Positions 4,309 to 28,449 of a stretch of 64,000 nucleotides of DNA are shown here, one piece after another. A program made the translations under genes and the position numbers. Location: the NCBI GenBank assembly GCA_035283685.1, contig DATETJ010000002.1:310001-374000 (forward strand), read 5' to 3'. The notes under the pieces are model-generated. The model was given only the letters and a program-made list of their open reading frames with translations, searched no databases and was not told the DNA's origin. The DNA comes from Candidatus Bathyarchaeia archaeon (GTDB lineage: Archaea; Thermoproteota; Bathyarchaeia; Bathyarchaeales; Bathyarchaeaceae). Numbering within the stretch: the stretch's first letter is position 1; every line of letters starts with the position of its first letter.

Positions 4309-5490
4309 GTGGTCAAGTTGACACAAGTGTTTGCTAAAAGAATGGATGGACTAGGGACTGAAACAGCTTTTGAAGTGCTCGCGAAAGCCAAAGCACTCGA
4401 GAAACAGGGACGCAGCATAATCCACTTGGAAATAGGCGAGCCAGATTTCGACACGCCCAGTAACATTAAGGAAGCAGCCGTCAAAGCCATGAAGGCTGGT
4501 TACACTCATTATGTTCCCGCCGCAGGCATCCCAGAATTGAGAGCAGCAATTGCTGAGTATCTTTCGAAAAGCCGCGGCATCAACGTCGATCCAGACGAAG
4601 TTGTCGTAACCCCGGGCGCCAAGCCGATCATATTCTTCAGCATCCTAGCCCTCGTGGAATCCGGAGACGAAGTCCTGTATCCAAACCCAGGCTTTCCAAT
4701 TTACGAGTCAATGGTCAACTTTGTGGGAGCCAAGCCTGTTCCAATGCCGTTGAAAGAAGAGAACGACTTCGCCATCAACAACGACGACACAGCCGATAAG
4801 ATAACAAAGAAAACGAAGATGATTATCCTCAACTCGCCAGAGAACCCGACGGGCGGTGTGCTTACAAAAGAAAATTTGGAGGTCATAGCTGACCGCATAA
4901 AGGGCAGAGACGACGTCTTAGTCCTCACCGATGAAGTTTACAATGAGAGCGTTTATGAAGGCAAACACTTGAGCATCGCTTCGCTGCCAGAAATGAAAGA
5001 CAAGACCATACTGCTAGACGGTTTTTCTAAAACATACGCCATGACTGGTTGGCGACTGGGCTACGCCGCCATGAGAAAGGATTTGGCTCAAAAAGTGGCG
5101 CAGCTGATGATTAACTCCAACTCGTGCACATGCGCGTTCACCCAGATGGCGGGAGTCGAAGCTTTACGGGGACCACAGGACGAGGCCAAGAGATTTGTTG
5201 AGGAGTTCAGGCGAAGACGCGAAGTCATAGTCGACGGCTTGAACAAGATCAAGGGCATCACGTGCAAAAAGCCCCGTGGCGCATTCTACGTGTTCCCAAA
5301 CGTCAATAGCTTCGGGATAGAAGCAAAGAAAATCGCAGACCACATTCTGCAAGACGCTGGAGTAGCCGTTTTATCGGGAACAGCCTTTGGCTCCTACGGC
5401 GAAGGCTACCTGCGACTGTCATTCGCCAACTCCGTCGAGAACATAAAGAAGGCAATGGAAAGGATTTCCGAATCAGTGAAGAAACTCTAA
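4309..5490 (+). CDS. Class I PLP-dependent aminotransferase (aspartate/alanine type)
   Basis: The 393-residue fold-type I aminotransferase transfers amino groups between an amino acid and a 2-oxo acid. Visible signatures are IHLEIGEPDFDTP, NSPENPTGG, the PLP aspartate/tyrosine segment LTDEVYNE, the Schiff-base lysine in DGFSKTYAMTGWRLGY, and the carboxylate-binding arginine in GYLRLSFANS. Substrate cannot be read from sequence; homologues include aspartate, alanine and serine-pyruvate/glyoxylate enzymes. Because hydroxypyruvate reductase, glycerate kinase and SHMT are nearby, a serine or alanine:glyoxylate role is attractive but is inference. The start is GTG with a TATA box 29 bp upstream and no SD. 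Confidence 0.93.
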   Translation: MVKLTQVFAKRMDGLGTETAFEVLAKAKALEKQGRSIIHLEIGEPDFDTPSNIKEAAVKAMKAGYTHYVPAAGIPELRAAIAEYLSKSRGINVDPDEVVVTPGAKPIIFFSILALVESGDEVLYPNPGFPIYESMVNFVGAKPVPMPLKEENDFAINNDDTADKITKKTKMIILNSPENPTGGVLTKENLEVIADRIKGRDDVLVLTDEVYNESVYEGKHLSIASLPEMKDKTILLDGFSKTYAMTGWRLGYAAMRKDLAQKVAQLMINSNSCTCAFTQMAGVEALRGPQDEAKRFVEEFRRRREVIVDGLNKIKGITCKKPRGAFYVFPNVNSFGIEAKKIADHILQDAGVAVLSGTAFGSYGEGYLRLSFANSVENIKKAMERISESVKKL

Positions 5491-9744: not shown

Positions 9745-10171
9745 ACCACTAACTATATGGACGATTGGACACAGCAACAGATCAAAAGAAGCATTTCTTG
9801 AATTACTACGAGGACACCAAGTCCAAGTCTTAGTTGACGTTCGCAGCTTCCCAACATCCAAGGCTAAGCATTTCAAACGTGAAGAAATGGAACGATGGCT
9901 ACCAGAAAACGGTGTGGAATACGTGTGGCTAGGAAAGGAGCTTGGAGGCTACCGTGCAGGCGGCTATCAAAAGCACATGAGAACCAAGCTGTTCAAGGAC
10001 GGAATGCAGAGACTGATCGAGATGGCTGCACAAAAGCGAGCTAACATCATGTGCATGGAGCCTAACCCAAGATATTGCCATCGCCACTTCATATCAGCCT
10101 ACTTGGAGAAAAAACATGTTCAAGTCATCCACATCATCGCCAAGACGCAGACCAGTCTCCTTAAGTTCTAA
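9701..10171 (+). CDS. DUF488 family protein
   Basis: The protein of up to 156 residues has the DUF488 hallmarks: TIWTIGHSNRSKEAFLELL at the start, LVDVRSFPTSKAKHF, GYQKHM, and the terminal CMEPNPRYCHRHFIS with the conserved C-H-R. Family function is unsettled; the cysteine and arginine cluster suggests an enzyme. The only conventional in-frame start before the domain is TTG at 9701, which overlaps glyA by 44 bases. The domain itself begins around 9750, so a shorter product from a rare start such as ATA is possible. It overlaps the longest frame of the following MazG-like gene. Confidence 0.75.
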   Translation: MKTPPKRTNTSKSAEPLTIWTIGHSNRSKEAFLELLRGHQVQVLVDVRSFPTSKAKHFKREEMERWLPENGVEYVWLGKELGGYRAGGYQKHMRTKLFKDGMQRLIEMAAQKRANIMCMEPNPRYCHRHFISAYLEKKHVQVIHIIAKTQTSLLKF

Positions 10172-10229
10172 GCCTGTCCCTTTTACAGAAGCTAATGTGC
10201 GACTACGTTTAGACATAGAGGCTGATAGA

Positions 10230-10523
10230 TTGCATATCCAAGAGTTTCAGGCCATGATGAAACGCATCTATTTCCTTCGCGATTCGCAGCGCGGCGCAAT
10301 GGGCACATTAAACTGGCTGAAGGACGAGGTTGAGGAACTGGAAGAGGCATTAGAAGGAAACAACAAGAAGGCATTAGAGGACGAGTTCGCCGACGTTTTG
10401 GCTTGGCTGACGTCCCTCGCAAACGTTGTCAACCTGAATCTCGAAAAAGCAGCCACATCCAAGTATGATAATGTATGTCCAAAATGCCGAAAAGCACCTT
10501 GCGAATGCCCTCAGCTGAAATGA
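10230..10523 (+). CDS. MazG-like nucleotide pyrophosphohydrolase with C-terminal Cys motif
   Basis: The 97-residue protein matches the small archaeal MazG-like family. It begins HIQEFQAMMKRIYFLRDSQRG and has the metal-binding acidic helices WLKDEVEELEEAL and ALEDEFADVLAWL (EExxE and ExxD). It ends with a zinc-finger-like CPKCRKAPCECP tail. Such enzymes hydrolyse non-canonical or surplus NTPs to NMPs. I place the start at TTG 10230 because homologues begin with this REFQ-type segment and GAGG precedes it by eight bases. A longer frame from 10116 would overlap the DUF488 gene. It is convergent with the EamA transporter gene two bases away. Confidence 0.82.
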   Translation: MHIQEFQAMMKRIYFLRDSQRGAMGTLNWLKDEVEELEEALEGNNKKALEDEFADVLAWLTSLANVVNLNLEKAATSKYDNVCPKCRKAPCECPQLK

Positions 10524-13079: not shown

Positions 13080-16000
13080 CTAGGCTACGAAGTCTTTCAG
13101 GCTCACCTGCTTTGGCTTTTTGCCTTCAAACAGAGAATCGATCTCTTCGCGTACCATGACAAGGCGCTGCGAGTAGTATTGTGGCAAGTTGTACTTGCGA
13201 ATCAGATGTTCGGCAGCGTCCAGATATTTCTCGATGCCGCCACGATAAACCGTCAGAGTTAAAGCGCCGCCGCATTCAGTGCACTTGCCTTTTAGCGGCG
13301 TACGCCTGAATTTCTTATTGCATCCCTTGCAGCGAAAACCCTGCGTCGAAAAAGCCCGAAGGTTGCCTGCGATGTCTCGCATGAAATGCGTAGTTAGAAC
13401 CTTCCACGCTACACGTCGGGCATCAACCGCGTCAATTCTTTCAGCCAAGCTAAGCTGCGCGTTCAACTTGTCTATCATTCTGCCCAGTTTCTTGTACATG
13501 CTTTCCTTGTTACCCATGTTAATATCAGAGACAGGTGTAGTATAGCCATAACCTTCAAACTGGCTTTCCAGACCCAATCGATGATCAACCATGTCAATCA
13601 AGCCTCGCACACTGTGAGGCGATGCCCCTTCCAACGTTTTTTCATAGAACGCCAAAGGGTACGCTGAAGCCACATCAACCTCGTGAGCTTGACGCTGCAC
13701 CTCAAGAGGGTTCACTGTTGGAATGATGAACAAAGGCGCATCCATTATTCCTCCGATTTGAGCAGGCAGAAACACCTTAGAAAAGTTCAGAATCGTATCC
13801 AAAGCCAGCATCAAAGCGTCCTCGTCGCCGTCGCAATCACGCCGTTTAGCCGAATGCCACAGCGGATGGGTGTAGCATAGGCTTAGCTCTGTGAAGCCTA
13901 CGACTCTTCCAAGAATGCCCACCGATGTATGTGGTGCCAAGCCGATGACAAGATGACCGATTAGATCTTCAGTACCCTTGGCGTCATAATAAGCTTGAAG
14001 ACCATACACTTTCTCCAGTAGCTCATCCACGAAAGCAGCTACGTTAACGAAGTACTCAGCGCATCTCCGCGATATGATGACGTCTTGCGCCTTCAACTCG
14101 CAGATTTGATCAGATTTAACCAAGGGCTCGCCATGCTGATCAATGGCGTAACCCAGTTGACGAAGCTTCTCAACGGCGACACCGACCTCCGCGGGTTTGA
14201 AATGTGTCAAGGGCGCATTCGTGGCGTCAAACCGTATGGTGCCATCCTTATACACTGAAAGATCGCGTCTTGCTCTCAGAAGCCCCTTCTCCAAGGTTTC
14301 AGGCGTCTTGGTTTCATTCATTAATCCCTTGACAGCTTTAATCAACTCAGGCTGCGAAACAGCCAACCTCTCACAAGTCTCATTAACTAACTGTCTCAGG
14401 TCAACCAGCTGTTTCTCAAAGCTTCTCGCTGACCTGCCACATGCTGGGCATGTCTCGTCTTTGACAACACGTTTGCATTGAGGACAATACTTCTCACACA
14501 CGGTTTCAACGCGACAACTAGGACATGTCAGCCTGAAGGTAAACTCACGGCACACAGGGCAACGCCGCCGCACCAAATCCACTGAAACGCTGCCTTTTCC
14601 CATAGCAACAATTAAGTTGCGGTGAGAACCACCAGACAAGCCAATGGGAAACAAGGCATGGACCAGAGGACGCATTTCTCGCCTTTTGGCTTTCTCAGGA
14701 CGCCCCATCCTAGCTCCTAAGAACGTTGGCGCCTTCTCCCTGACAATAATTCCTGAAATCTCATGGATGATTTGGCAAGCATCTTTGGATTCAGGCAATG
14801 GCAAATCCTCAGTGTTCCACGCCAGACAAGCCGCAAATACTTCCGCATCGTCGCCGGCAACTACTATCTTATCGCCATTAACACGATGTGGAATGCACAG
14901 TTTTTCCAGCAACTTCTTCACAGCATCTTCCTTTGCCCCAGCAACCTCTTGAACAACGTCACCTTCAACGCGAACCTCCGAGTTTCGAAGCCAAACTCTC
15001 AACCGTCCAAAATCTTCCTGATTGAGGCTTTTCCAAAAGTATGTGTAGCGCGGATAAAGTGGAACCCTCAGGATTGAAGTGAGCATCAAAGCCTCATGTC
15101 CACTTATGTGGTCGGAGAATCCGTCGTTCATCAAACCGCTGAGTCGACTCGAAGAAAGCTGGAGTTTGGAGGATGCCAATTCCAAGTTGCCGTTGAAGTG
15201 CCGCTGGATGGCAGCTCTGAGTTCCTGAGCCCACCATTCCTCAGTTATACCCGAAGGATACAAGGGTTTGTTATTGTATAGGAAGTCGCCAAAACTAACC
15301 AGAATGTCGCCGACAAACAGCACGCGGTCAATCTGATCTTTAAGAGACTCAAAATTCTCCAAGGAGACACGAACAACCGAGTCATCTTTAAGGCGCACTA
15401 TGGGCGTTTCGATACCGTCAACGGGCAGAACCACTCCTGCCTTCCCCGGCGCTTCAATGCGAAGCTGAGTGCCAGCCGCCAAGAAACGTTGAAGAACAAG
15501 CATTGTAGCTGGGTGAATGCCCATGGCGGCTAGACCTGTGTTTCTAGCTCTTCCATAACGCAGCCTGAAGCCACCGTGGCTGGATGGAAACGAGAACACA
15601 GGCCGCCCAGCGATCACGTCTTCCATGAAGCCCACGCTTCTCTTCTCCTGAATCTGCCTCACCCTCTTGAGCCAGTCCCATCCTTCAATCCCAAGCTTCT
15701 CGATCACAGTCCAAGCCTTGGTTGAACGTCCAACGATTCCATCGTTCACGACCCGTAGAGCACCACCTCTAACACAGTTTGTCTCTATGCGAGGCAGGTT
15801 GCGAAAGGAAGAAACCTCGAAACGGTCCGATTCGATGCCCGTTACTTCCACGGGAAGCAATTCTAAGGCGTTCTTTAGCTCGTCATCCGAAACCTTGTAT
15901 TGAAACCTACCGATCGAACGCTCGTAGAGCCGCAGCTCCTCAGTGAAACGCGCAATCTCCTCGGGCAGAGGCTTGTACCTTTCCAGCCCAAGCAGCCGGC

Positions 16001-16493
16001 GAACGAAATCAGCGACAACCAAGGTCAATGCCTGGTCAGTTCCGCCAGCTGAACGTATAGGTCCAGCAAAATACACAGCCAGATACTTCGATTTGTCAGG
16101 GTTCTCTTTGATGGCGACACGAGCCACACCTTGAAGAGGCGCAGCAGTTATCCCCTCAGTCAATATAGCTAGAGCTGTTCTCACAGCCTGTTCAGCCGCA
16201 GCTTGGGCTTGCAGATGTCCGAACTTGCCGTACACGATTTCCTCTGCAATTTTGAAAGCTAACTCCTCTCGTGGCAGACTCTCGCTTAGTTCCCGTATGC
16301 TTTCCGCCACACCAGGCGGACCCACGAGTCCTTCAACGAGCCCTGCAAGATCCTTTGCGATGTCAATTTCAGGTCGAGCGACGGGGTCAAGATGCTTCTC
16401 TCGTGCTTTCTCGGCAATTTCAAAGAGTTGATTAAGCTTGGCTTCCAGAGACGTCGCGTACTCTCGGTACTCTCTGCTCATCTTTATGCTCAA
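13080..16493 (-). CDS. polC: DNA polymerase D large subunit DP2 (catalytic)
   Basis: The 1137-residue catalytic subunit of the archaeal replicative D-family polymerase shows the conserved N-terminal region AVYFAGPIRSAGGTDQALT, a zinc-finger block CPSCRVETVCEKYCPQCKR, the catalytic acidic motif RRDCDGDEDALML, and a C-terminal zinc motif CKGCNKKFRRTPLKGKC. The catalytic motif, where many DP2 genes carry an intein, is uninterrupted here. The frame begins with TTG at 16493, preceded by a GGGGG six bases upstream; an ATG at 16481 is an alternative. The DP1 partner is 10 kb away at 26.5 kb. The gene follows GGGP synthase and precedes a winged-helix gene. Confidence 0.97.
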   Translation of the reverse strand: MSIKMSREYREYATSLEAKLNQLFEIAEKAREKHLDPVARPEIDIAKDLAGLVEGLVGPPGVAESIRELSESLPREELAFKIAEEIVYGKFGHLQAQAAAEQAVRTALAILTEGITAAPLQGVARVAIKENPDKSKYLAVYFAGPIRSAGGTDQALTLVVADFVRRLLGLERYKPLPEEIARFTEELRLYERSIGRFQYKVSDDELKNALELLPVEVTGIESDRFEVSSFRNLPRIETNCVRGGALRVVNDGIVGRSTKAWTVIEKLGIEGWDWLKRVRQIQEKRSVGFMEDVIAGRPVFSFPSSHGGFRLRYGRARNTGLAAMGIHPATMLVLQRFLAAGTQLRIEAPGKAGVVLPVDGIETPIVRLKDDSVVRVSLENFESLKDQIDRVLFVGDILVSFGDFLYNNKPLYPSGITEEWWAQELRAAIQRHFNGNLELASSKLQLSSSRLSGLMNDGFSDHISGHEALMLTSILRVPLYPRYTYFWKSLNQEDFGRLRVWLRNSEVRVEGDVVQEVAGAKEDAVKKLLEKLCIPHRVNGDKIVVAGDDAEVFAACLAWNTEDLPLPESKDACQIIHEISGIIVREKAPTFLGARMGRPEKAKRREMRPLVHALFPIGLSGGSHRNLIVAMGKGSVSVDLVRRRCPVCREFTFRLTCPSCRVETVCEKYCPQCKRVVKDETCPACGRSARSFEKQLVDLRQLVNETCERLAVSQPELIKAVKGLMNETKTPETLEKGLLRARRDLSVYKDGTIRFDATNAPLTHFKPAEVGVAVEKLRQLGYAIDQHGEPLVKSDQICELKAQDVIISRRCAEYFVNVAAFVDELLEKVYGLQAYYDAKGTEDLIGHLVIGLAPHTSVGILGRVVGFTELSLCYTHPLWHSAKRRDCDGDEDALMLALDTILNFSKVFLPAQIGGIMDAPLFIIPTVNPLEVQRQAHEVDVASAYPLAFYEKTLEGASPHSVRGLIDMVDHRLGLESQFEGYGYTTPVSDINMGNKESMYKKLGRMIDKLNAQLSLAERIDAVDARRVAWKVLTTHFMRDIAGNLRAFSTQGFRCKGCNKKFRRTPLKGKCTECGGALTLTVYRGGIEKYLDAAEHLIRKYNLPQYYSQRLVMVREEIDSLFEGKKPKQVSLKDFVA

Positions 16494-19773: not shown

Positions 19774-20065
19774 TCGTAAAGTTAATGGTCGCGTTGCCAC
19801 GGCTCTTAAGTGACAGAAGACTGGTAGCGGTGGGAATTTCCCGTCAAGCACAAGTTGTGCCTTCGAGCTACGCTGTTTCCCAATGGCGTGCGGTAGTAAA
19901 CAGCTTTTTCAAGCACGACCTCGTAATGTTTCAGCCACCTGCCTCTCTACGAAGTATGTTGTCTTTGCATAGAACCTTTACATTTGTAATGGCAGAACCG
20001 CAATTTTTTTCCGTCGCCCCGTATACAGAACTGTATCCTCGCAAGCTGTGTTGGCGGTTGCCCGA

Positions 20066-20548
20066 ATGTCGTTTAAAGAGATCGTTCAAAAGTGGCTTAT
20101 CGGCTCAACGAATGACCCGGTAATCAAAATACTCATAAAGAATAGTCATTTGACAAAAACTCAGCTAGAGACGCTTGCAATTGACTTTCTAGGTCCAAAT
20201 ATTGCAGGAAAATCCTTAACGAACGAGGAAAAAGCCCTTTTACGCCTATCGAAGGCAGGAATAAGCCGTGGAGCCTTTAATCATACGTTGAAGCAGGCCA
20301 GAAAGAACATAATCCAGTCAATCTACACCATCATTCTCCTTGGATACCTCGGAGTGTTTGAAGACACAAGGCTAGACCCCTACCTAGAGATTGCCAGCAA
20401 ACTCAAAGAATACGTCAGCGCCTATCAAGACATTTTAACAGGCAACAATCTTGCCACCGAACAGTTGAGAATTGTGAACATGCTGCGAGAAGAACTGGAA
20501 GTCACGCTTGAAAAACTGTCCAGTCCGAGGTCTCTGTCAAAAACGTGA
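20066..20548 (+). CDS. Helical protein of unknown function, possible DNA-binding helix-turn-helix
   Basis: I do not recognise a named family for this 160-residue protein. It is mostly alpha-helical and charged, with LTKTQLETLAIDFLG and a segment KAGISRGAFNHTLKQARKNI that reads like a helix-turn-helix. Then come a hydrophobic stretch SIYTIILLGYLGVFE and a helical C-terminus with LRIVNMLREELEVTLEKL. The ATG at 20066 is preferred over GTG 20048. Operator-like ATCACA composites flank it, and its stop codon lies inside one (20544-20562). It could be the protein that binds these sites or a target of the regulator encoded next. No SD is evident. Confidence 0.65.
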   Translation: MSFKEIVQKWLIGSTNDPVIKILIKNSHLTKTQLETLAIDFLGPNIAGKSLTNEEKALLRLSKAGISRGAFNHTLKQARKNIIQSIYTIILLGYLGVFEDTRLDPYLEIASKLKEYVSAYQDILTGNNLATEQLRIVNMLREELEVTLEKLSSPRSLSKT

Positions 20549-20660: not shown

Positions 20661-20747
20661 CGTGATGTGTGATGTCACAGACGCTTGGCCTGGTTTGTGA
20701 TGTTGCTGTGATGTTTCAGGGGTATCTGGAATCACAGTCATATCACG
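20661..20747. promoter_or_regulatory. Composite operator D and further ATCACA/TGTGAT sites before the membrane regulator gene
   Basis: GTGATGTGTGATGTCAC lies at 20662-20678. Further half-sites are TGTGAT at 20696 and 20707 (11 bp apart), ATCACA at 20731 and ATCACG at 20742 (11 bp apart). The array ends 12 bp before the ATG at 20759, a position that fits autoregulation. The frame of the downstream gene stays open through the array from GTG 20669, but this part is better read as control DNA. Confidence 0.65.
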
Positions 20748-20758
20748 GCGCGGTTGGA

Positions 20759-21484
20759 ATGTTCCCTTTTCCGAGACAGACGTTGTTAGTTGCTGAGCCT
20801 CTTTTCATCTTCACAGTCTTTTTCATCTTTCTCACAATGGCCTCGACTCTGTTATACTACAAGCGAGTCAGGCAGGCTTCCAAGGCATATGAGGAGGCTA
20901 AGAACACTGTGAGCGACATAGTGATCAGCTTCGACAAGCAGCTCAGCAGGCAAGAGGAGGAGGTAGGTGTAGCCATGCAGAAGATTGAGGTTCAAGCGGC
21001 TAGGGGCGAGAAGCTTTCTCGACGACTTGATGAGCAAGAAGACCGCATCACCACAGGCCTAGGAGAACTCAGTTCAAAAGTGCAGACGCTTCCAGAGGTC
21101 GAATCAGTGAAGACCGTCTTGAGTGGCTTGACAGAGAAAGTCGAAGGTTTGGCAAGAGCGCAAGAAGAGTGGAAGAAACGTGCAATATCCGTAACCGAGT
21201 CCCAAATCGAAGCGGCTATTCCTTTGAAACGGGAACAAGCTCTCGCGCCGTTGACTGACACGGAGCTTCGTGTGCTAGAGTTCATCGCGACCTCGCCTTC
21301 CGGCGAAAGAACAGCGCCCGAGGTACAAGAAATCATAAGATTGACCAGAGAGCACACCGCCAGGTTGATGAAGAAGCTTTATGAAGGCGGTTACTTGGAG
21401 CGCCGAGATGCTAAAACCCCCTACGCATATCGAGTAAAAGAGGAAATGCTGAGAATGTTGAAGAAAAGCGAAGCTAAAGCCTAG
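20759..21484 (+). CDS. Membrane-anchored winged-helix transcription regulator with coiled coil
   Basis: The 241-residue protein has one N-terminal membrane helix (about residues 11-33, PLFIFTVFFIFLTMASTLL). A long charged coiled coil follows (about 40-145, rich in E, K, Q). The C-terminal winged helix (about 160-235) contains LTDTELRVLEFIATSPSGERTAPEVQEIIRL split by a short turn, then HTARLMKKLYEGGYLERRD and a wing TPYAYRV. The architecture suggests a regulator that holds DNA at the membrane or responds to an envelope signal. I start it at ATG 20759, after the ATCACA array. The gene is convergent with herA and overlaps its end by 11 bases. Confidence 0.8.
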   Translation: MFPFPRQTLLVAEPLFIFTVFFIFLTMASTLLYYKRVRQASKAYEEAKNTVSDIVISFDKQLSRQEEEVGVAMQKIEVQAARGEKLSRRLDEQEDRITTGLGELSSKVQTLPEVESVKTVLSGLTEKVEGLARAQEEWKKRAISVTESQIEAAIPLKREQALAPLTDTELRVLEFIATSPSGERTAPEVQEIIRLTREHTARLMKKLYEGGYLERRDAKTPYAYRVKEEMLRMLKKSEAKA

Positions 21485-23033
21485 CTGAGCCTTCCTGCAC
21501 TGCGCTTCCGCCAGCCTCTCGAAGACGCCTAAGCTTTTCATCCATGTCTGCGTGAGCCTTTGACGCCTGCAGTCCGTAATCCGCTGCTCCTTTCTTCTCA
21601 AGATATTCGGGGAAATGCGTGACCTTCACGGGAACAGCAAATCTGATTTTTGGCTCTGATATCAGCAGAGCCTCTCCAACGTCGAGCATTTTGATCTCTG
21701 TGTCGCTGTATTCCAAATACGGCGTGTTCTCAGTCAAGTAGACGCGATCCTTGCGCAACTCGGTTTTCATAAGCACCTTTGTCCACAGTTCAGCGAAAAC
21801 ATCGAAGTTGATTCTCGAGGGTCTGGGTGTGACGGCGTTGAGTCCCACACGGTATTTTCGGTATGTTAAGGCTATGTCGGAGAAGATTGTCTTGGGCTTG
21901 TTTGGATCAAGGAATTCGTGCGCTTCCTCCAAAGTTATGAGAAGAGTGGGTAGCTCCTTCCAGTCCTCGTAGTTTTCTTCCCAGATGCGTTTATAGTGCT
22001 GCGCCACTGCCGATGCAGTAAGGCATGTGATCTTGTTCTGCTCATCTGAGCTAATCCCTGATATGTCGACTAGGCAGGTTATTCCTCTGCAAACGTTCTG
22101 AGTGATGCTATCAATGAAACTATAATCTGAAGACGGGAAAAGATCGTGAGACAATGACGACACCTTCAGCATCAAAGCTTCAACTACATGCTTCATTTTG
22201 TAGTCTGCCAGACGCCCGACTCCTTGATAGCCTTCGGCACCGTAAGCTTCACGCGAATCCTCGATCCACGTTTTGCCAAGTTTCCTGAAAAGCTTGCGGG
22301 CTAACCTAAACTGTGGCAAGCCTATGTCAGGGAAAAGCGTGATGAGTTTTTCAGGCGTGATTGTGTACAAACCGACAGACATCTTGCCGTCTCGAGCGGA
22401 ATAATACTGGACCTTGCTGTGGAACAAGGGGTGGTCTCTCAGGCCCTTTTGAGGCTTGATTCCCTTGCCTTCAAGCAGTTGCCCAGCGAAGTCGAAGATG
22501 AGCGCCACGGTCTTGGGGCTATTATCAATTATCTGGGCGTTTAACATCAGTTCCGTGTTTGTTTTTCCGGAGCCAGTCATCCCGAACATGCCCATCATTA
22601 AGGGTATAGCTTCAATGTTGATTCCAGCCGATCCGAGCAATTGCTCGCCAGAGCGCAGGCTACCAACCTCTAACTCCCCTGAAAGCCTTAGAATCTTGCA
22701 GTCCTCCCCATCAGCGGCGAAGACCCTGTCCCTGTAGTTAGGGTTGAACGTTGGAGAGCGCGCCCGGCTTCCTCGCCTCTCCAGAAACAAGATGGCTTCA
22801 ACGCACCGAAAAGACGAGTATGGACCGAAGGCTTCCTTTCCCTGCGCTTCACGTAGTTGCTCTATAGTGTCGAGAGTGGATTTGCTCTCAGCGTTAACAA
22901 CTCTTGCATAAAAGCTTCTTTCCCCAGAATCTATACGCACAATCTGCCCGAACGAAAGGTTGATGCCCTGATTAAGGAAGAAGGAAACAGAATCTCCTTT
23001 AGTTCCACACACGAACGCGATTGGCTCAGACAT
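21474..23033 (-). CDS. herA: HerA-family DNA translocase/helicase
   Basis: The 519-residue hexameric ATPase works with NurA in resecting DNA ends. An N-terminal HAS-like beta-barrel domain (SFGQIVRIDSGERSFYARVV) precedes the RecA-like core. The core has the Walker A motif GMTGSGKT at residues 151-158, Walker B LLITLEEAHEF, and the arginine-containing RKYRVGLNAVTPRPSRI. The start ATG 23033 lies inside the last codons of nurA, so the two are coupled. The window has no mre11-rad50, which accompany herA-nurA in many archaea. Confidence 0.93.
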   Translation of the reverse strand: MSEPIAFVCGTKGDSVSFFLNQGINLSFGQIVRIDSGERSFYARVVNAESKSTLDTIEQLREAQGKEAFGPYSSFRCVEAILFLERRGSRARSPTFNPNYRDRVFAADGEDCKILRLSGELEVGSLRSGEQLLGSAGINIEAIPLMMGMFGMTGSGKTNTELMLNAQIIDNSPKTVALIFDFAGQLLEGKGIKPQKGLRDHPLFHSKVQYYSARDGKMSVGLYTITPEKLITLFPDIGLPQFRLARKLFRKLGKTWIEDSREAYGAEGYQGVGRLADYKMKHVVEALMLKVSSLSHDLFPSSDYSFIDSITQNVCRGITCLVDISGISSDEQNKITCLTASAVAQHYKRIWEENYEDWKELPTLLITLEEAHEFLDPNKPKTIFSDIALTYRKYRVGLNAVTPRPSRINFDVFAELWTKVLMKTELRKDRVYLTENTPYLEYSDTEIKMLDVGEALLISEPKIRFAVPVKVTHFPEYLEKKGAADYGLQASKAHADMDEKLRRLREAGGSAVQEGSARL

Positions 23034-24060
23034 AGTCAGCAATCATCTCCCTCTTGAATGGGTATTTCACGCCATGAAGTTCATCTGCAAAACTGCATGT
23101 GTATTCCTCTCGCCGAAGCGTGTCCAGCAATCCTGCCTCGGTAAGTGAGGTTTCGACTTCATCAAGGTATGAGAGAAGCATCGGGTCTGAAGGCCCCGAG
23201 AACTCGTGAGCGAGAAAGAGTGGAATGGGATATCCAAGGGCTCTAGGATCCTCCGCCACCGTAGTGAGTGGAGCCAACACCTCACTGATTCCCCTTTCTG
23301 TCAGATATTCCATGATATCGCAGCGAAAAACGCGCGGACTATCTCTACTCAACTTAACAAGAGAAATGTCGCCGTACAAGCTCTTGTCTTTGTCCGCTTC
23401 TCTTATGGGATGGCACACCCAAGTGTCGTAGGGAGAGAGTGTACTCGTAGTAGCTATAAGATCCCGCCCCTTTTCGTCTCGAAGCGACGGAGAGTTCTTG
23501 CAGACGGCCAAGAGGTTGATTTCGGCTTTCTCGCACTCGTCATAAAGTGTTACTCGAAATTTTCTGTCGCCGCCGAAATATCCTCCCCCGTCAAGCAAGA
23601 GGTAGCTACTACGAGGATACGTATCCTCGTAGTAAAATGACCTGTCTTTCTGGTGCAAAAGGTCAAGCGCCATTTGGCTCTCCAGCTCGATTCTCACATC
23701 TGTGAGAAGGTTACTACGAGTATATGCGTCTCCTATTGCAGTGCACATTCTTTCTTTGAAGTCCCAGTCGACAACACGATCCTTTACTACGGCATATGCT
23801 GCCCTCATAAGGTATACTCCCCAATTATTCGCTCTCTTGAGGGTCCGGGTGGAGCAGTCTACCGCTAGGAAATGGCCATCAAACTTTCCCATTTTTGGCA
23901 GTGGTTGAATATTAGATCTGTCCGCTTTTATGGCAATAACTGGCTCCGCCTTTGCGTCCGTGCACCCTGCAACGCTTCCCTTCTCCACATAGAGACTGAG
24001 ACGTCGTTGCATTTCTGCGAAGTCTTCACTCATTCTGCTCAGCACGAAGGATCCATCCAT
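23026..24060 (-). CDS. nurA: NurA 5'-3' nuclease
   Basis: The 344-residue nuclease of the HerA-NurA end-resection machine shows the catalytic motif I aspartate in FLAVDCSTRTL, LLLDGGGYFGG, the acidic ISLVKLSRDSPR region, and the late FLAHEFSG. It shares its stop region with the herA start. ATG 24060 is used here, with ATG 24033 an equally good start and no clear SD for either. The coding sequence contains four copies of TACTACGAG, two forming a perfect 28-bp palindrome at 23607-23634. Confidence 0.9.
   Translation of the reverse strand: MDGSFVLSRMSEDFAEMQRRLSLYVEKGSVAGCTDAKAEPVIAIKADRSNIQPLPKMGKFDGHFLAVDCSTRTLKRANNWGVYLMRAAYAVVKDRVVDWDFKERMCTAIGDAYTRSNLLTDVRIELESQMALDLLHQKDRSFYYEDTYPRSSYLLLDGGGYFGGDRKFRVTLYDECEKAEINLLAVCKNSPSLRDEKGRDLIATTSTLSPYDTWVCHPIREADKDKSLYGDISLVKLSRDSPRVFRCDIMEYLTERGISEVLAPLTTVAEDPRALGYPIPLFLAHEFSGPSDPMLLSYLDEVETSLTEAGLLDTLRREEYTCSFADELHGVKYPFKREMIADYV
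23607..23634. repeat. Perfect 28-bp palindrome inside nurA
   Basis: The half-arm TACTACGAGGATAC is followed immediately by its reverse complement with no spacer. It encodes ordinary residues of NurA (YYEDTYPRSS region). Two more TACTACGAG copies lie within 200 bp, at 23441-23452 (minus) and 23712-23723 (plus). Confidence 0.9.
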
Positions 24061-24116
24061 ACATGGCAAGGTAGATTCGTAGAGTTAAGCTCGCCTGCCT
24101 TAAGAAAACTGTGCGT

Positions 24117-24542
24117 TCATTTATTATCTTTTGCGAGATTAAGCTGGCTCTCTGTCCTAGGAGCGCCGAGCCGGTAACGTTTGCCGTTGGAAACGCCGGC
24201 CTTCATTAGAAAGCCTCTGCCCGCCAACCTAGTCAAATACGTGGAAACCATGCTCAAGGCTACGGGTTCTTTCATCTCTTGCTCGTAAACGTTCTGGACA
24301 TCCTTTGCGGCAAACCACACAATCGGAAAATGCTTCTCTACGACAAGGCGCATCTTCTCCAGTTTAGGCAACTCGGAGGTCGGCACACTCTCTTGGGGAT
24401 TCACTCCGGGCATGCCACCGAGCAGTTCAACGATGTCTAGAAGGCGCAGTGCCTTCTCCCGAGTGACCTGGCCGTCAAAGGTTACGGTGTAACGATTTCC
24501 GCCTCCGTCGAAGACTTCCACTCGCATTTTCTTTGCAGGCAT
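24117..24542 (-). CDS. Winged-helix-like protein next to the replication origin
   Basis: The 141-residue protein has an N-terminal beta-rich part (MRVEVFDGGGNRYTVTFDG), a helix VTREKALRLLDIVELLGG, and a C-terminal part resembling a winged helix. The C-terminal landmarks are FAAKDVQNVYEQEM, SMVSTYLTRLAGRGFLMK and a wing SNGKRYRLG. I do not recognise a named family. It borders the origin region on the side opposite orc1/cdc6. A role in origin binding is possible by position only. It could also start at the internal ATG (MRVEV). The gene is followed by nurA on the same strand. Confidence 0.75.
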   Translation of the reverse strand: MPAKKMRVEVFDGGGNRYTVTFDGQVTREKALRLLDIVELLGGMPGVNPQESVPTSELPKLEKMRLVVEKHFPIVWFAAKDVQNVYEQEMKEPVALSMVSTYLTRLAGRGFLMKAGVSNGKRYRLGAPRTESQLNLAKDNK

Positions 24543-25167
24543 CTAAATCACAATTTGCTTAACGGATTAACACCTCACGAGTTATAGGGTTTATGGTGAA
24601 TGCGCCGAGGCGAAAAGAGCTGTTTGATGCCCGAAAGAACAAAAGAACACATTATTAGAGTTGTGTGCTTTCACAGTGTTCACTGGCGACGTAGTGGCTT
24701 GAGTACAAATTGGTTCGTTCTCAGCCTGTTCCTCCAGTGGAAACTTAGGGGTTATTCCTATTTTGCAACGAGGCGTGAAACTCGCCGCATTCGGGAACTT
24801 CGACAAACGCTGACTTTCGTCGTACCGAGACCGTGTTTCGTTCACTGGACGCAACTGGCAGGAAACTTGTGTCGCAGTTAACGGTCAAGCTACCAGAGAG
24901 TTGTTCTCGCTCCCACCCCTCAATTTCCTATGCAACCCTTCATTGTGTCGGCGACGACTCAGCACGCGAGGCTTTGTGCTTTGATGTTAGTGAATTTTTC
25001 TTCACTATGGATGCGCCGATCCTCGTAGTAATCACGTTCCCGCTTCTTTTGTCCAAGGGAAAACAAGGGGTGTCTGGGTATCTTCCCACTCTTCGACGCG
25101 AGCGGCGCTGATCAACTGGGCATCTGGAGTTTCAGCTTTGTATCTATTTTTTTGTACTGCAGTACTT
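24543..25167. other. oriC: Chromosomal replication origin (oriC) with three origin recognition boxes
   Basis: This noncoding region lies between the winged-helix gene and orc1/cdc6. It has three 19-bp boxes identical at 13 positions (consensus nCAnnGGAAAnnnAGGGGT): CCAGTGGAAACTTAGGGGT at 24734-24752, GCATAGGAAATTGAGGGGT on the minus strand at 24933-24915, and CCAAGGGAAAACAAGGGGT at 25053-25071. These match the archaeal ORB layout of a dyad half plus a G-run. Weaker CCAGTGAAC sites occur on the minus strand near 24676-24690 and 24838-24850. A hairpin TAGTGAA-N6-TTCACTA (24988-25007) and a TACTACGAG copy (25019-25030) lie between boxes 2 and 3. Confidence 0.85.
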
Positions 25168-26481
25168 ATGCGTGCTTCAGCATTCTCTGACTGGGCTTCG
25201 ATAAAACTGGAGAGAGGAAGGGCCTACTTGAATAACACAGACGTTCTCAGTTGCGTGTTCGACGGTTTTCTGAATGGAAAGCAGATTCTGGAAAACAGAG
25301 AGGTGCTCCGACACGATTACGTGCCGGAAACACTGCCTCACCGCGAAGCGCAGGTTCGTTTTTTGGGCGAGACCGTGACCCCTGTCCTCAAAGGTGAACG
25401 ATGCTCGAACATCTTTGTCTACGGCAAAACGGGCACGGGCAAGACGGCTGTCATGAAATTCGTGCTGAACAAATTGTCTCAAAAAGCGGCTCAGCTCAAT
25501 CTTCCTGTAAACGTTTGCTACGTGAACTGCAGAATCGCAGGCACCGAGTATCGCGTGTTGTCTGGTCTCTGTGACGCAATTGGTGTACGCGTTCCTTTCA
25601 CAGGCTTGGCGTTGGGCGAGGTTTTTGATCGTTTACACAGAGGCTTGGATGCTCACCGAGGGGTCTTTATCGCCGTGTTGGATGAGGTTGACGCTTTGAT
25701 AAAACAGAGAGGCGATGTCATCCTGTACGAGTTGACCCGCATAAATGAAACCCTACGACATGCTAAAACAACACTGGTTGGCATTTCCAACGACCTCACG
25801 TTTAAGGAATTCTTGGACCCGCGGGTCTTGAGCTCGCTCAGCGAAGAAGAGATCGTTTTTAAACCATACAACGCCGCTGAGCTTCTGGACATCTTACTCG
25901 ACCGGGCAAAGCTTGCCTTTCATGAACATGTGCTATCAGAAGGAGCCGTAGGTCTGTGTGCCGCCTTGGCAGCAGCTGAACACGGGGACGCCAGACGCGC
26001 GCTTGATCTTCTCCGAGTCGCTGGGGAGCTGGCTGAACGTGAAGGAGCGCCACAACTCCTCGAGGGCCACATAAGGCAGGCTGAGAAGCGTATAGAACAC
26101 GATCGTATGACAGAGGCCCTCCGGAACCTGCCTCTCCACTCAAAGCTGGTCTTGTGCAGTGTTTATCTTCTGTTTAAGGTACAGGCCTCGGAAGGCTGCG
26201 TCACCGGCAATATATACGAAGTCTACAGTGAACTCTGCGAACAAGCAGGAATATCTCCGTTGACGCAGAGAAGGGTCAGCGGCTTGATCAATGAACTGGA
26301 TGTGATTGGCTTGCTTAACACGCAGGTAGTCAACATGGGTCGCTATGGGCGAACCAAGAAAATACGACTAAGCATCACTCCCGCTCTCTTCAGAAATGTG
26401 TACTCCGATGACGAGAGACTAGGCCAGCTTATGACGTACTCTCCAAAGCTTGCGACTCTGGTTTCGAGAAGCAGACGTTGA
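25168..26481 (+). CDS. cdc6: Orc1/Cdc6 replication initiator
   Basis: The 437-residue AAA+ initiator has the typical N-terminus VFDGFLNGKQILENREVLRHDYVPE, Walker A GKTGTGKT at about residues 86-93, Walker B VLDEVDAL, sensor 1 GISNDLTF and a sensor 2 region GDARRALDLLR. A C-terminal winged helix follows with LTQRRVSGLINELDVIGLL. It should bind the origin recognition boxes in the upstream intergenic region and load MCM. I start it at ATG 25168; a TTG at 25138 is also in frame, and the TATA-like TTTGTATCTATTTTTTT just before favours a leaderless ATG. Confidence 0.96.
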   Translation: MRASAFSDWASIKLERGRAYLNNTDVLSCVFDGFLNGKQILENREVLRHDYVPETLPHREAQVRFLGETVTPVLKGERCSNIFVYGKTGTGKTAVMKFVLNKLSQKAAQLNLPVNVCYVNCRIAGTEYRVLSGLCDAIGVRVPFTGLALGEVFDRLHRGLDAHRGVFIAVLDEVDALIKQRGDVILYELTRINETLRHAKTTLVGISNDLTFKEFLDPRVLSSLSEEEIVFKPYNAAELLDILLDRAKLAFHEHVLSEGAVGLCAALAAAEHGDARRALDLLRVAGELAEREGAPQLLEGHIRQAEKRIEHDRMTEALRNLPLHSKLVLCSVYLLFKVQASEGCVTGNIYEVYSELCEQAGISPLTQRRVSGLINELDVIGLLNTQVVNMGRYGRTKKIRLSITPALFRNVYSDDERLGQLMTYSPKLATLVSRSRR

Positions 26482-26507: not shown

Positions 26508-28052
26508 TTATGCTGCATTGAAATTTAGTGTTGCCACTTGTAGAGTTTGAAGGTTGACTACGGGGATGATTCCGGGGGTTGGGTTCAAACCAAGCTTGCT
26601 CATGTATTCGGTTTGCTTTTGCCAAGCTCCTGAGTTTACTACGAGTACACCCCGGTATCTGCTGTAGCCTTGCACGTGAACGTGTCCCGCATGAAAAATG
26701 TCGGGAATTCGCTCAATGACTAAAAAGTCGCGTTTCCCTGGTGCAATGGGCGTGCGCTGACCATATATTGGTGCCAAGTGTCTTCCTCGAAGGAGCAGTT
26801 TCATAGCTTCTTCTGGTGCATTGAAGCTTGCGTTGGGCGTGTTGGCAATAACGTCGTCCAAACTTCGCCCATGGTAGGTCAACATTTCAACGCCATGAAG
26901 GCTTAAAGTGCAGGGATTTCCGAGTGAGGTTACGTGTCTTGCCTCATACACTGGTTCAGCATATTCTTTAGGAAGAGCTGGTTGGGGTAGCGCCTTCCGG
27001 GAGGCATCGTGGTTTCCTGGAGTAATCACGAGTTCGATGTAGTCTGGGATATGCTCAACGTATTTGGCCACTGCAGCATATTGACGGTGTATGTTCTTAA
27101 TCGCAAGTTCCTTGGTCTGTTTGGGGTATATGCCTATACCGTCGACTAGGTCTCCTGCAATTACCACGTATTTGACTTGCCCGGCTATCTCTCGCCAACG
27201 CTCATCTCCGAGTTTCCCGTTTAACCACATTAGAAACCGGTTGAACTCAGCGCGCATGAACAATTTGCTTCCAACGTGTAAATCTGATATCAGCGCGGCG
27301 TAGACTGGCTCTTTTGCCTTGTTGGGAGCCTTTTGAGGCACGTCTGGGAAAAGCACGTCTTCAAGGATGAGTAGATCGTTTTTCGCTTTGATTGCGTTAA
27401 TGCACACAACTTGATCTAGGAGTAACGCTTGAACTCGCTCGCGAACTGAACCCTCAAGGTCTGGATAAACCATTACCGTGACAGTAGAGTCCATGTCTTC
27501 GAGGCGCAAGAAGGCTCGTTGTTTGGACTCGCGTCTCTCTGTAAGCATTCCTATGACTTTGATTTTGGCGTTGACTGGAGCCTTTAGGGCTTCGGAAATT
27601 GTGGAGGCATCTCTGGCGTCCATCCTTTGCCTCAAGAATCTTTGCAGGCGCCTAAAGCGATCCACGAAGTACTCTTGATATTCCTCCATTGATCCAACCG
27701 TGTCCATCGTGAGCGTAGGATCTTCGAGCACTTTGATGTCGGAGGCAATGTCCATTGCAGGTGGTCTGAAAGCTTCGCTTCTCGATTCGAAGAAAGGCGG
27801 AGGTTCAGGAGCCAATTGCTCAGCTGTTTCCAGCTGGGTGTCTGGCGTCTTTGTGACGGTTTCTTCGATGAGATTTCGAGTTATGAACAGAGGCTTTTGT
27901 TCGGCTTCGTCGATCCTCTTTGTCACTTTTTCCATTAGCGCAACGGGATCTTCAGTTTTCGATAAGGTCTCAAGGAAAGTGAAGGCTTCGCCGTCGAGCT
28001 GATAACCTGACTGTATTGTGAATGAGACAGCCCGGTGCAGTCGCTCGCTCAC
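26508..28052 (-). CDS. polB: DNA polymerase D small subunit DP1 (proofreading exonuclease)
   Basis: The 514-residue subunit has an N-terminal helical domain, a central OB fold, and a C-terminal calcineurin-like phosphoesterase domain. The metal-binding motifs are all intact: ISDLHVGSKLF, VIAGDLVDG, ITPGNHDASRK and IFHAGHVHVQGY, so 3'-5' proofreading should be active. I place the start at GTG 28052 because GGAGG (28064-28060) ends seven bases upstream; the frame is open to 28088. It converges with orc1/cdc6 26 bp away. One TACTACGAG copy (26637-26650) lies near its 3' end. Confidence 0.95.
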   Translation of the reverse strand: MSERLHRAVSFTIQSGYQLDGEAFTFLETLSKTEDPVALMEKVTKRIDEAEQKPLFITRNLIEETVTKTPDTQLETAEQLAPEPPPFFESRSEAFRPPAMDIASDIKVLEDPTLTMDTVGSMEEYQEYFVDRFRRLQRFLRQRMDARDASTISEALKAPVNAKIKVIGMLTERRESKQRAFLRLEDMDSTVTVMVYPDLEGSVRERVQALLLDQVVCINAIKAKNDLLILEDVLFPDVPQKAPNKAKEPVYAALISDLHVGSKLFMRAEFNRFLMWLNGKLGDERWREIAGQVKYVVIAGDLVDGIGIYPKQTKELAIKNIHRQYAAVAKYVEHIPDYIELVITPGNHDASRKALPQPALPKEYAEPVYEARHVTSLGNPCTLSLHGVEMLTYHGRSLDDVIANTPNASFNAPEEAMKLLLRGRHLAPIYGQRTPIAPGKRDFLVIERIPDIFHAGHVHVQGYSRYRGVLVVNSGAWQKQTEYMSKLGLNPTPGIIPVVNLQTLQVATLNFNAA

Positions 28053-28449
28053 TAAGTGTCCTCCAACCTCTCCGCTTAGGCATCGCAATTAAACCTTCCC
28101 TTGTGTCTCCTAACAATTCTATCTTTCGCCTTAGGTGCAGAAGGCTCGTTAACGCTGCCGTTGCGGCGTCAAACTCGTGCGCAGTGAGGATTTGATGATG
28201 ACTTGGGCGAAAAGAATTCTTGAGTCGCCAGTTTTGATACTTGAACAGTGGTCACCCGGTGGTCGGGGTTCGAGAGAGTTGCTGCGAGACCGATGCCCAC
28301 AATGGTCCTCTCGGGTTGTCTCATGATAGGTTTCCCAATTTGCCATATAGCTTTTCCACAAAGTATAGGAATTTCCGAGCGCGAGTTATAACACTTCCAA
28401 CTGCAAACACTTTATTTATATCAATACATATGTCGATTTGGGGATCGCC
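28053..28449. promoter_or_regulatory. DP1 / PhoU-type divergent intergenic region with TATA box
   Basis: TTTATTTATA at 28411-28420 is a good TATA box for the plus-strand regulator at 28450, predicting a leader of about 10 nt or less. The DP1 SD is at 28060-28064. A 51-codon minus frame at 28169-28324 is open but has no SD or recognisable similarity, so I do not call it. Confidence 0.55.

Follow-up and report, generated by a model that had tools for sequence, protein, structure and literature searches.

The intergenic region at 24543-25228 of the analysed window, a stretch of 64,000 nucleotides (C2:310001-374000) within the 634 kb contig C2 of a Bathyarchaeia genome (2.28 Mb, 98% complete), is very probably an Orc1-1-dependent chromosomal replication origin of the oriC1 type. 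The reading is drawn from sequence comparison: the ORB sequence with its G-string, the inverted polarity of the boxes, their uniqueness in the genome and their class-wide conservation beside orc1-1 fit an oriC1-type origin and bear out the original prediction of an origin next to orc1/cdc6. Two further components, absent from that prediction, belong to the origin region, namely the gene for an uncharacterised winged-helix protein and a second repeat array with the motif TT[C/A]ACA (Table 1).

Table 1 Positions of the predicted origin elements and neighbouring genes in the window
Feature	Position	Strand	Description
PolD large subunit DP2	13080..16493	-	8 kb from the boxes
Uncharacterised 141-aa winged-helix protein gene	24117..24542	-	Divergent from orc1-1 across the origin
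TT[C/A]AC distal cluster	24559..24581	+	TTAACG at 24559, TTAACA at 24567, degenerate CTCACG from 24574
Conserved TTATAG...GGTG block	24582..24600	-	From the relatives' alignment
TT[C/A]ACA pair	24670..24685	+	TTCACAG at 24670 and TTCACTG at 24679, about one helical turn apart
ORB box A (box 1 of the original prediction)	24733..24752	+	TCCAGTGGAAACTTAGGGGT; PWM 29.3 bits, no background hits on the contig
TT[C/A]ACA repeat between A and B	24841..24847	+	TTCACTG; relatives' sites at +97/+98 and +108; one recognisable copy here
ORB box B (box 2)	24915..24933	-	GCATAGGAAATTGAGGGGT; opposite in orientation to A and C in 33/33 relatives
Candidate unwinding stretch	24973..25012		The 40 bp of highest AT content in the B-C interval; holds the TAGTGAA/TTCACTA pair
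ORB box C (box 3)	25053..25071	+	CCAAGGGAAAACAAGGGGT
orc1-1 (Orc1/Cdc6 initiator)	25228..26481	+	Probable start TTG 25228; longest ORF from TTG 25138
PolD small subunit DP1	26508..28088	-	Convergent with orc1-1

Three 19-bp boxes with 13 identical positions, two in one orientation and one in the other over a span of 338 bp, had been described at this site, and these particulars were reproduced exactly; the boxes read CCAGTGGAAACTTAGGGGT at 24734-24752 (+), GCATAGGAAATTGAGGGGT at 24933-24915 (-) and CCAAGGGAAAACAAGGGGT at 25053-25071 (+). They are canonical ORBs with a G-string, as had been proposed, and lie close to the published common motif TCCA[CG]T[TG]GAAA[TC][GA]AAGGGGT (PMC4164010). A motif search of the remaining genome confirmed their uniqueness: all three exact matches are located here, against about 0.07 expected on both strands of the 2.28 Mb, and a scatter of such boxes through the genome is clearly not found. 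Beyond the three, a single one-mismatch site occurs in the genome (C9:128604), which was read as chance. A position matrix built from the relatives scores above 17 bits only at these three boxes in the 634 kb contig, and in the closed relative G014 (1.56 Mb) it recovers the three boxes of that genome plus two isolated sites of weak score, the background rate of matrix hits being about one per megabase.

The same arrangement recurs throughout the class. The order A(+)/B(-)/C(+) was found in all 33 alignable Bathyarchaeia loci that are distinct and have complete upstream sequence, with the consensus TTTCCAnTGGAAAnnnAGGGGTG and with spacings of 140-270 bp between A and B and 119-267 bp between B and C. 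Across 41 genomes, 43 of the 54 exact pattern hits fall at most 1 kb upstream of orc1-1. A second Orc1/Cdc6 paralogue, Orc1-2 (about 29% identical; C2:561859-562968 of the same genome, G000, outside the window), is present in nearly all relatives, and no ORB cluster was detected at 30 Orc1-2 loci, where 0 exact and 1 one-mismatch hits compare with 39 exact and 32 one-mismatch hits at the orc1-1 loci. The Orc1-2 gene, with no ORBs nearby, is probably not an origin-linked initiator. One Bathyarchaeota contig (L015) has ORBs at 2445 (-), 2636 (+) and 10547 (+), orc1 at 4986 and the winged-helix gene at 9994-10425; its origin seems to be split, the -/+ pair of ORBs lying next to DP1 and the remaining single one next to the winged-helix gene.

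The Orc1/Cdc6 protein adjacent to the boxes has named relatives in Bathyarchaeota, exceeds the curated cut-offs and is of the ORB-binding type. Its closest solved chains are 2qby_A and 2v1u_A (E about 1e-111), both from DNA-bound Orc1 structures, and by sequence it is classed with the initiators of the Sulfolobus Orc1-1/Aeropyrum type. The relatives' alignment favours TTG 25228 as its start over TTG 25138 of the longest ORF. The identities that had been given to the nearby DP1 and, about 8 kb off, DP2 both hold, and those of the neighbouring pair fared less well: the supposed HerA (21474-23042) is HerA/DUF87-like, passing Pfam DUF87, but reaches 55 bits or less against NCBIfam HerA cut-offs of at least 600, and the name NurA (23026-24069) is not upheld by a sub-threshold Pfam match (E = 0.067) or by solved structures, which give no NurA match. 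The two overlapping genes at 21474-24069, HerA-like and possibly NurA-like and far below curated cut-offs, could represent a divergent nuclease-translocase pair. Two small genes before the winged-helix gene, at 20048-20548 (+) and 20669-21484 (+), encode a helical protein and a coiled-coil/MarR-like protein; their order with the winged-helix gene is kept in L015, L016 and L022, as judged on position, size and start sequence, which makes this a conserved cluster. A search for structured RNA gave no Rfam match.

Between boxes B and C, the G-strings of which face outward like those of the two ORBs on either side of the Sulfolobales unwinding region, the stretch at 24973-25012 reaches 70% AT and may be the unwinding position in this genome. 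The whole interval here averages 51% AT, with no clearly AT-rich element; across the class, the B-C interval is more AT-rich than the A-B interval in 32 of the 33 loci, and comparison with Sulfolobales oriC1 points to B and C as the pair flanking the unwinding region. A motif search of the B-C interval found nothing above shuffled sequences, so that a ucm-like element is not visible there. The TAGTGAA/TTCACTA pair predicted between boxes 2 and 3 does occur, at 24988-24994/25001-25007, but its reading as a hairpin was not significant (z = -1.9); 10 of 200 shuffles folded as well as 24988-25007, and the relatives' alignment shows no conserved columns at the pair. GC and TA skews, raw and codon-corrected, have no extreme at the boxes, and no skew range on contig C2 or in the closed genome G014 exceeds permutation (p 0.29-0.66); the skew test has therefore no power here and neither supports nor refutes the origin.

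A second set of conserved elements surrounds box A. In an ungapped alignment of the Bathyarchaeia loci anchored on box A, conserved columns extend from about -168 to +112, which is not the case when B or C is the anchor. The plus-strand motif TTCACA occurs 56 times upstream of A (3.7 in shuffled sequence) and 43 times downstream (3.2), and it shows no excess between B and C and no enrichment elsewhere. The sites recur at -66/-65, -57/-56, +24, +97/+98 and +108 from box A, many of them paired 9-11 bp apart; among the 29 non-redundant loci, 23 have the site at -66/-65 and 25 that at -57/-56, and the distal repeats are likewise position-specific in relatives, at -177/-175, -169 and -162/-161. Counts inside single genomes are not decisive for such a short motif, whereas conservation in register is. 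An array of like kind, in its own fixed register, is found in family f15 (83 versus 6.4 shuffled), and repeats also lie beside the ORBs in f19, f23 and f32 (14 versus 2.2), though the winged-helix gene is elsewhere in these genomes. Where the ORBs accompany the winged-helix gene and orc1 is distant, the repeats are only weakly enriched (9 versus 4.0); together with the enrichment in lineages that have the winged-helix gene away from the origin, this makes the tie between protein and repeats an indirect one. Six Sulfolobales loci show no enrichment (2 versus 2.0). As judged by these alignments and counts, TT[C/A]ACA repeats in fixed register around box A are a feature of the whole class and of other Thermoproteota.

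The 141-aa winged-helix protein has no match in Pfam or NCBIfam, and its relatives' proteins give weak generic winged-helix hits. A structure model of moderate confidence (pLDDT 73) contains a beta-hairpin and a helix followed by a winged helix, and a fold search with this model retrieved generic winged-helix proteins and regulators, none with an E-value below 0.001. The gene is single-copy in 36 of the 41 Bathyarchaeia genomes and, in each of the 34 with both genes on one contig, it diverges from orc1-1 at a distance of 614-886 bp. Among 151 Thermoproteota genomes, a profile search detected the gene in 97, with one copy in each. Families f1, f2, f6, f7, f9, f11, f17, f18 and f33 have it next to orc1-1 in divergent orientation, as do 18 of the 24 genomes of f15; in five more f15 genomes, one gene is found at each end of a single contig, a pattern compatible with neighbours on a circular record whose start falls between them. 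In families with the two genes apart, the ORBs of the sampled genomes accompany one gene or the other: in f16, f29, f30, f35, f36 and f13 they precede the winged-helix gene and not orc1-1, and in f19, f23 and f32 they precede orc1-1. In some relatives with a relocated initiator gene, the winged-helix gene still remains next to these boxes. Matches were also obtained in 38 of 59 Asgard genomes, many covering the winged-helix part only; three Asgard genomes have a homologue with an ORB roughly 300-400 bp upstream, and one of these has all three boxes in +/-/+ polarity. Weaker homologues (E about 1e-18) in L332 and L333 (Hydrothermarchaeota / Euryarchaeota) have no ORB within 1.5 kb. The conserved TTATAG...GGTG block is the probable TATA/BRE of the winged-helix gene; it adjoins the distal TT[C/A]AC repeats, suggesting self-regulation of the gene. 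A search of the open-access literature, with subscription papers mostly outside it, returned no description of a Bathyarchaeia origin or of the 141-aa winged-helix protein.

By analogy with known ORB origins, Orc1-1 monomers would bind the three ORBs with fixed polarity, B(-) and C(+) would flank the region of MCM loading and DNA opening, and replication would fire from the origin at 24543-25228; the published model places MCM loading at the unwinding region, which opposed ORBs enclose (PMC6742236, PMC12141716). Box A(+) would lie in a second module with the TT[C/A]ACA repeats in helical-turn pairs, and the best candidate binder of this module is the divergently encoded winged-helix protein, which could form with the initiator a two-protein nucleoprotein complex. 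Linkage and co-occurrence with the repeats make this protein a plausible second origin factor. Binding of the repeats by this protein, together with its participation in initiation, is the weakest step of the scheme and is put forward as a tentative possibility. We are more doubtful about the full form of the proposal, a two-protein origin in which the winged-helix protein would bind the array around box A, would be needed together with Orc1-1, and would be at least as good a marker of the ancestral origin as the initiator gene. The main argument against a second factor is that the repeats and the winged-helix gene track each other imperfectly.

Several other explanations were weighed against an Orc1-1-dependent origin. 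A chance cluster of boxes has a vanishingly small probability and is already refuted by three exact matches within 338 bp, where about 0.07 were expected in the genome, and by their retention in 33/33 loci. The boxes might be an operator, through which Orc1-1 and perhaps the winged-helix protein only control their own divergent promoters while replication starts elsewhere; boxes and repeats do sit between two divergent genes, and there is overlap between the distal repeats and the probable promoter of the winged-helix gene. However, three boxes of inverted polarity over 338 bp are more than an operator requires, and the closed relative G014 has no other ORB cluster. Moreover, the boxes lie away from the orc1 promoter in several families and from the winged-helix promoter in others, so that neither promoter accounts for all of them, and we regard an operator as very unlikely. 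That the locus is one of several chromosomal origins, or a dormant one, is less improbable but still unlikely: such cases occur in archaea (PMC5333045) and a second Orc1 is encoded at C2:561859, whereas the Orc1-2 loci have no ORB cluster and G014 has one ORB cluster per chromosome, an observation which concerns ORB-type origins.

For the repeat array, it is a serious possibility that another protein, Orc1-2 or a UBP-like chromatin protein, is the binder and that the winged-helix gene is linked to the locus otherwise, e.g. through control of orc1-1 transcription. In f19, f23 and f32 the repeats accompany the ORBs while the winged-helix gene is elsewhere, nearly all relatives encode Orc1-2, and an essential motif within Sulfolobus oriC1 is recognised by UBP (PMC12141716). 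On the other hand, the repeats are not enriched at the six Sulfolobales loci, and the listed sampled genomes of that family have no winged-helix match; in addition, the gene keeps its place beside the ORBs even where orc1 is elsewhere, which is not required of a regulator acting on orc1 only.

The comparison provides a precise and testable origin model for Bathyarchaeia, valid class-wide. Should a role for the winged-helix protein at the origin be borne out, Thermoproteota and Asgard archaea, the latter being the lineage nearest to eukaryotes, would share a hitherto missing initiation protein, and its gene would be a practical origin marker in uncultured archaea in which skew analysis fails and orc1 has moved.

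Compared with known systems, the locus is close to the Sulfolobus/Saccharolobus oriC1 with Orc1-1 in box sequence and G-string, initiator type and place upstream of orc1-1. It also shares with Sulfolobales oriC1 the ORB(-)/ORB(+) pair, the interval between the two being AT-richer there and in 32 of the 33 Bathyarchaeia loci. The order in Sulfolobales is -/+/+ with the third box gene-side, whereas this locus has +/-/+ and its third box is on the far side, and the TT[C/A]ACA array and winged-helix gene of this origin were seen in none of the sampled Sulfolobales genomes. WhiP, a winged-helix origin protein of Sulfolobus, is encoded next to its origin and defines oriC3. WhiP and UBP are both DNA-binding proteins at archaeal origins beside Orc1, the UBP motif lying inside the unwinding region; the 141-aa protein, set beside them by description, has its own predicted N-terminal beta-hairpin/helix part and is located at a putative Orc1-1 origin.

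The oriC of Pyrococcus abyssi was reportedly revealed by GGGT cumulative skew; here, plain GC and TA skews show nothing. Pyrococcus oriC has ORBs upstream of cdc6 and PolD genes nearby (PMC4010727, PMC2643942), both of which are shared with this locus, and these papers mention neither the winged-helix gene nor the repeat array. In the thaumarchaeon Nitrosopumilus maritimus, a single origin has been mapped (PMC4010727), and family f15 is probably the group of this organism. Its boxes are more degenerate than those here, and two of them are direct boxes with a separation of 61-62 bp; f15 combines ORB-like boxes, TT[C/A]ACA repeats and a winged-helix gene divergent from orc1, as in the Bathyarchaeia locus.
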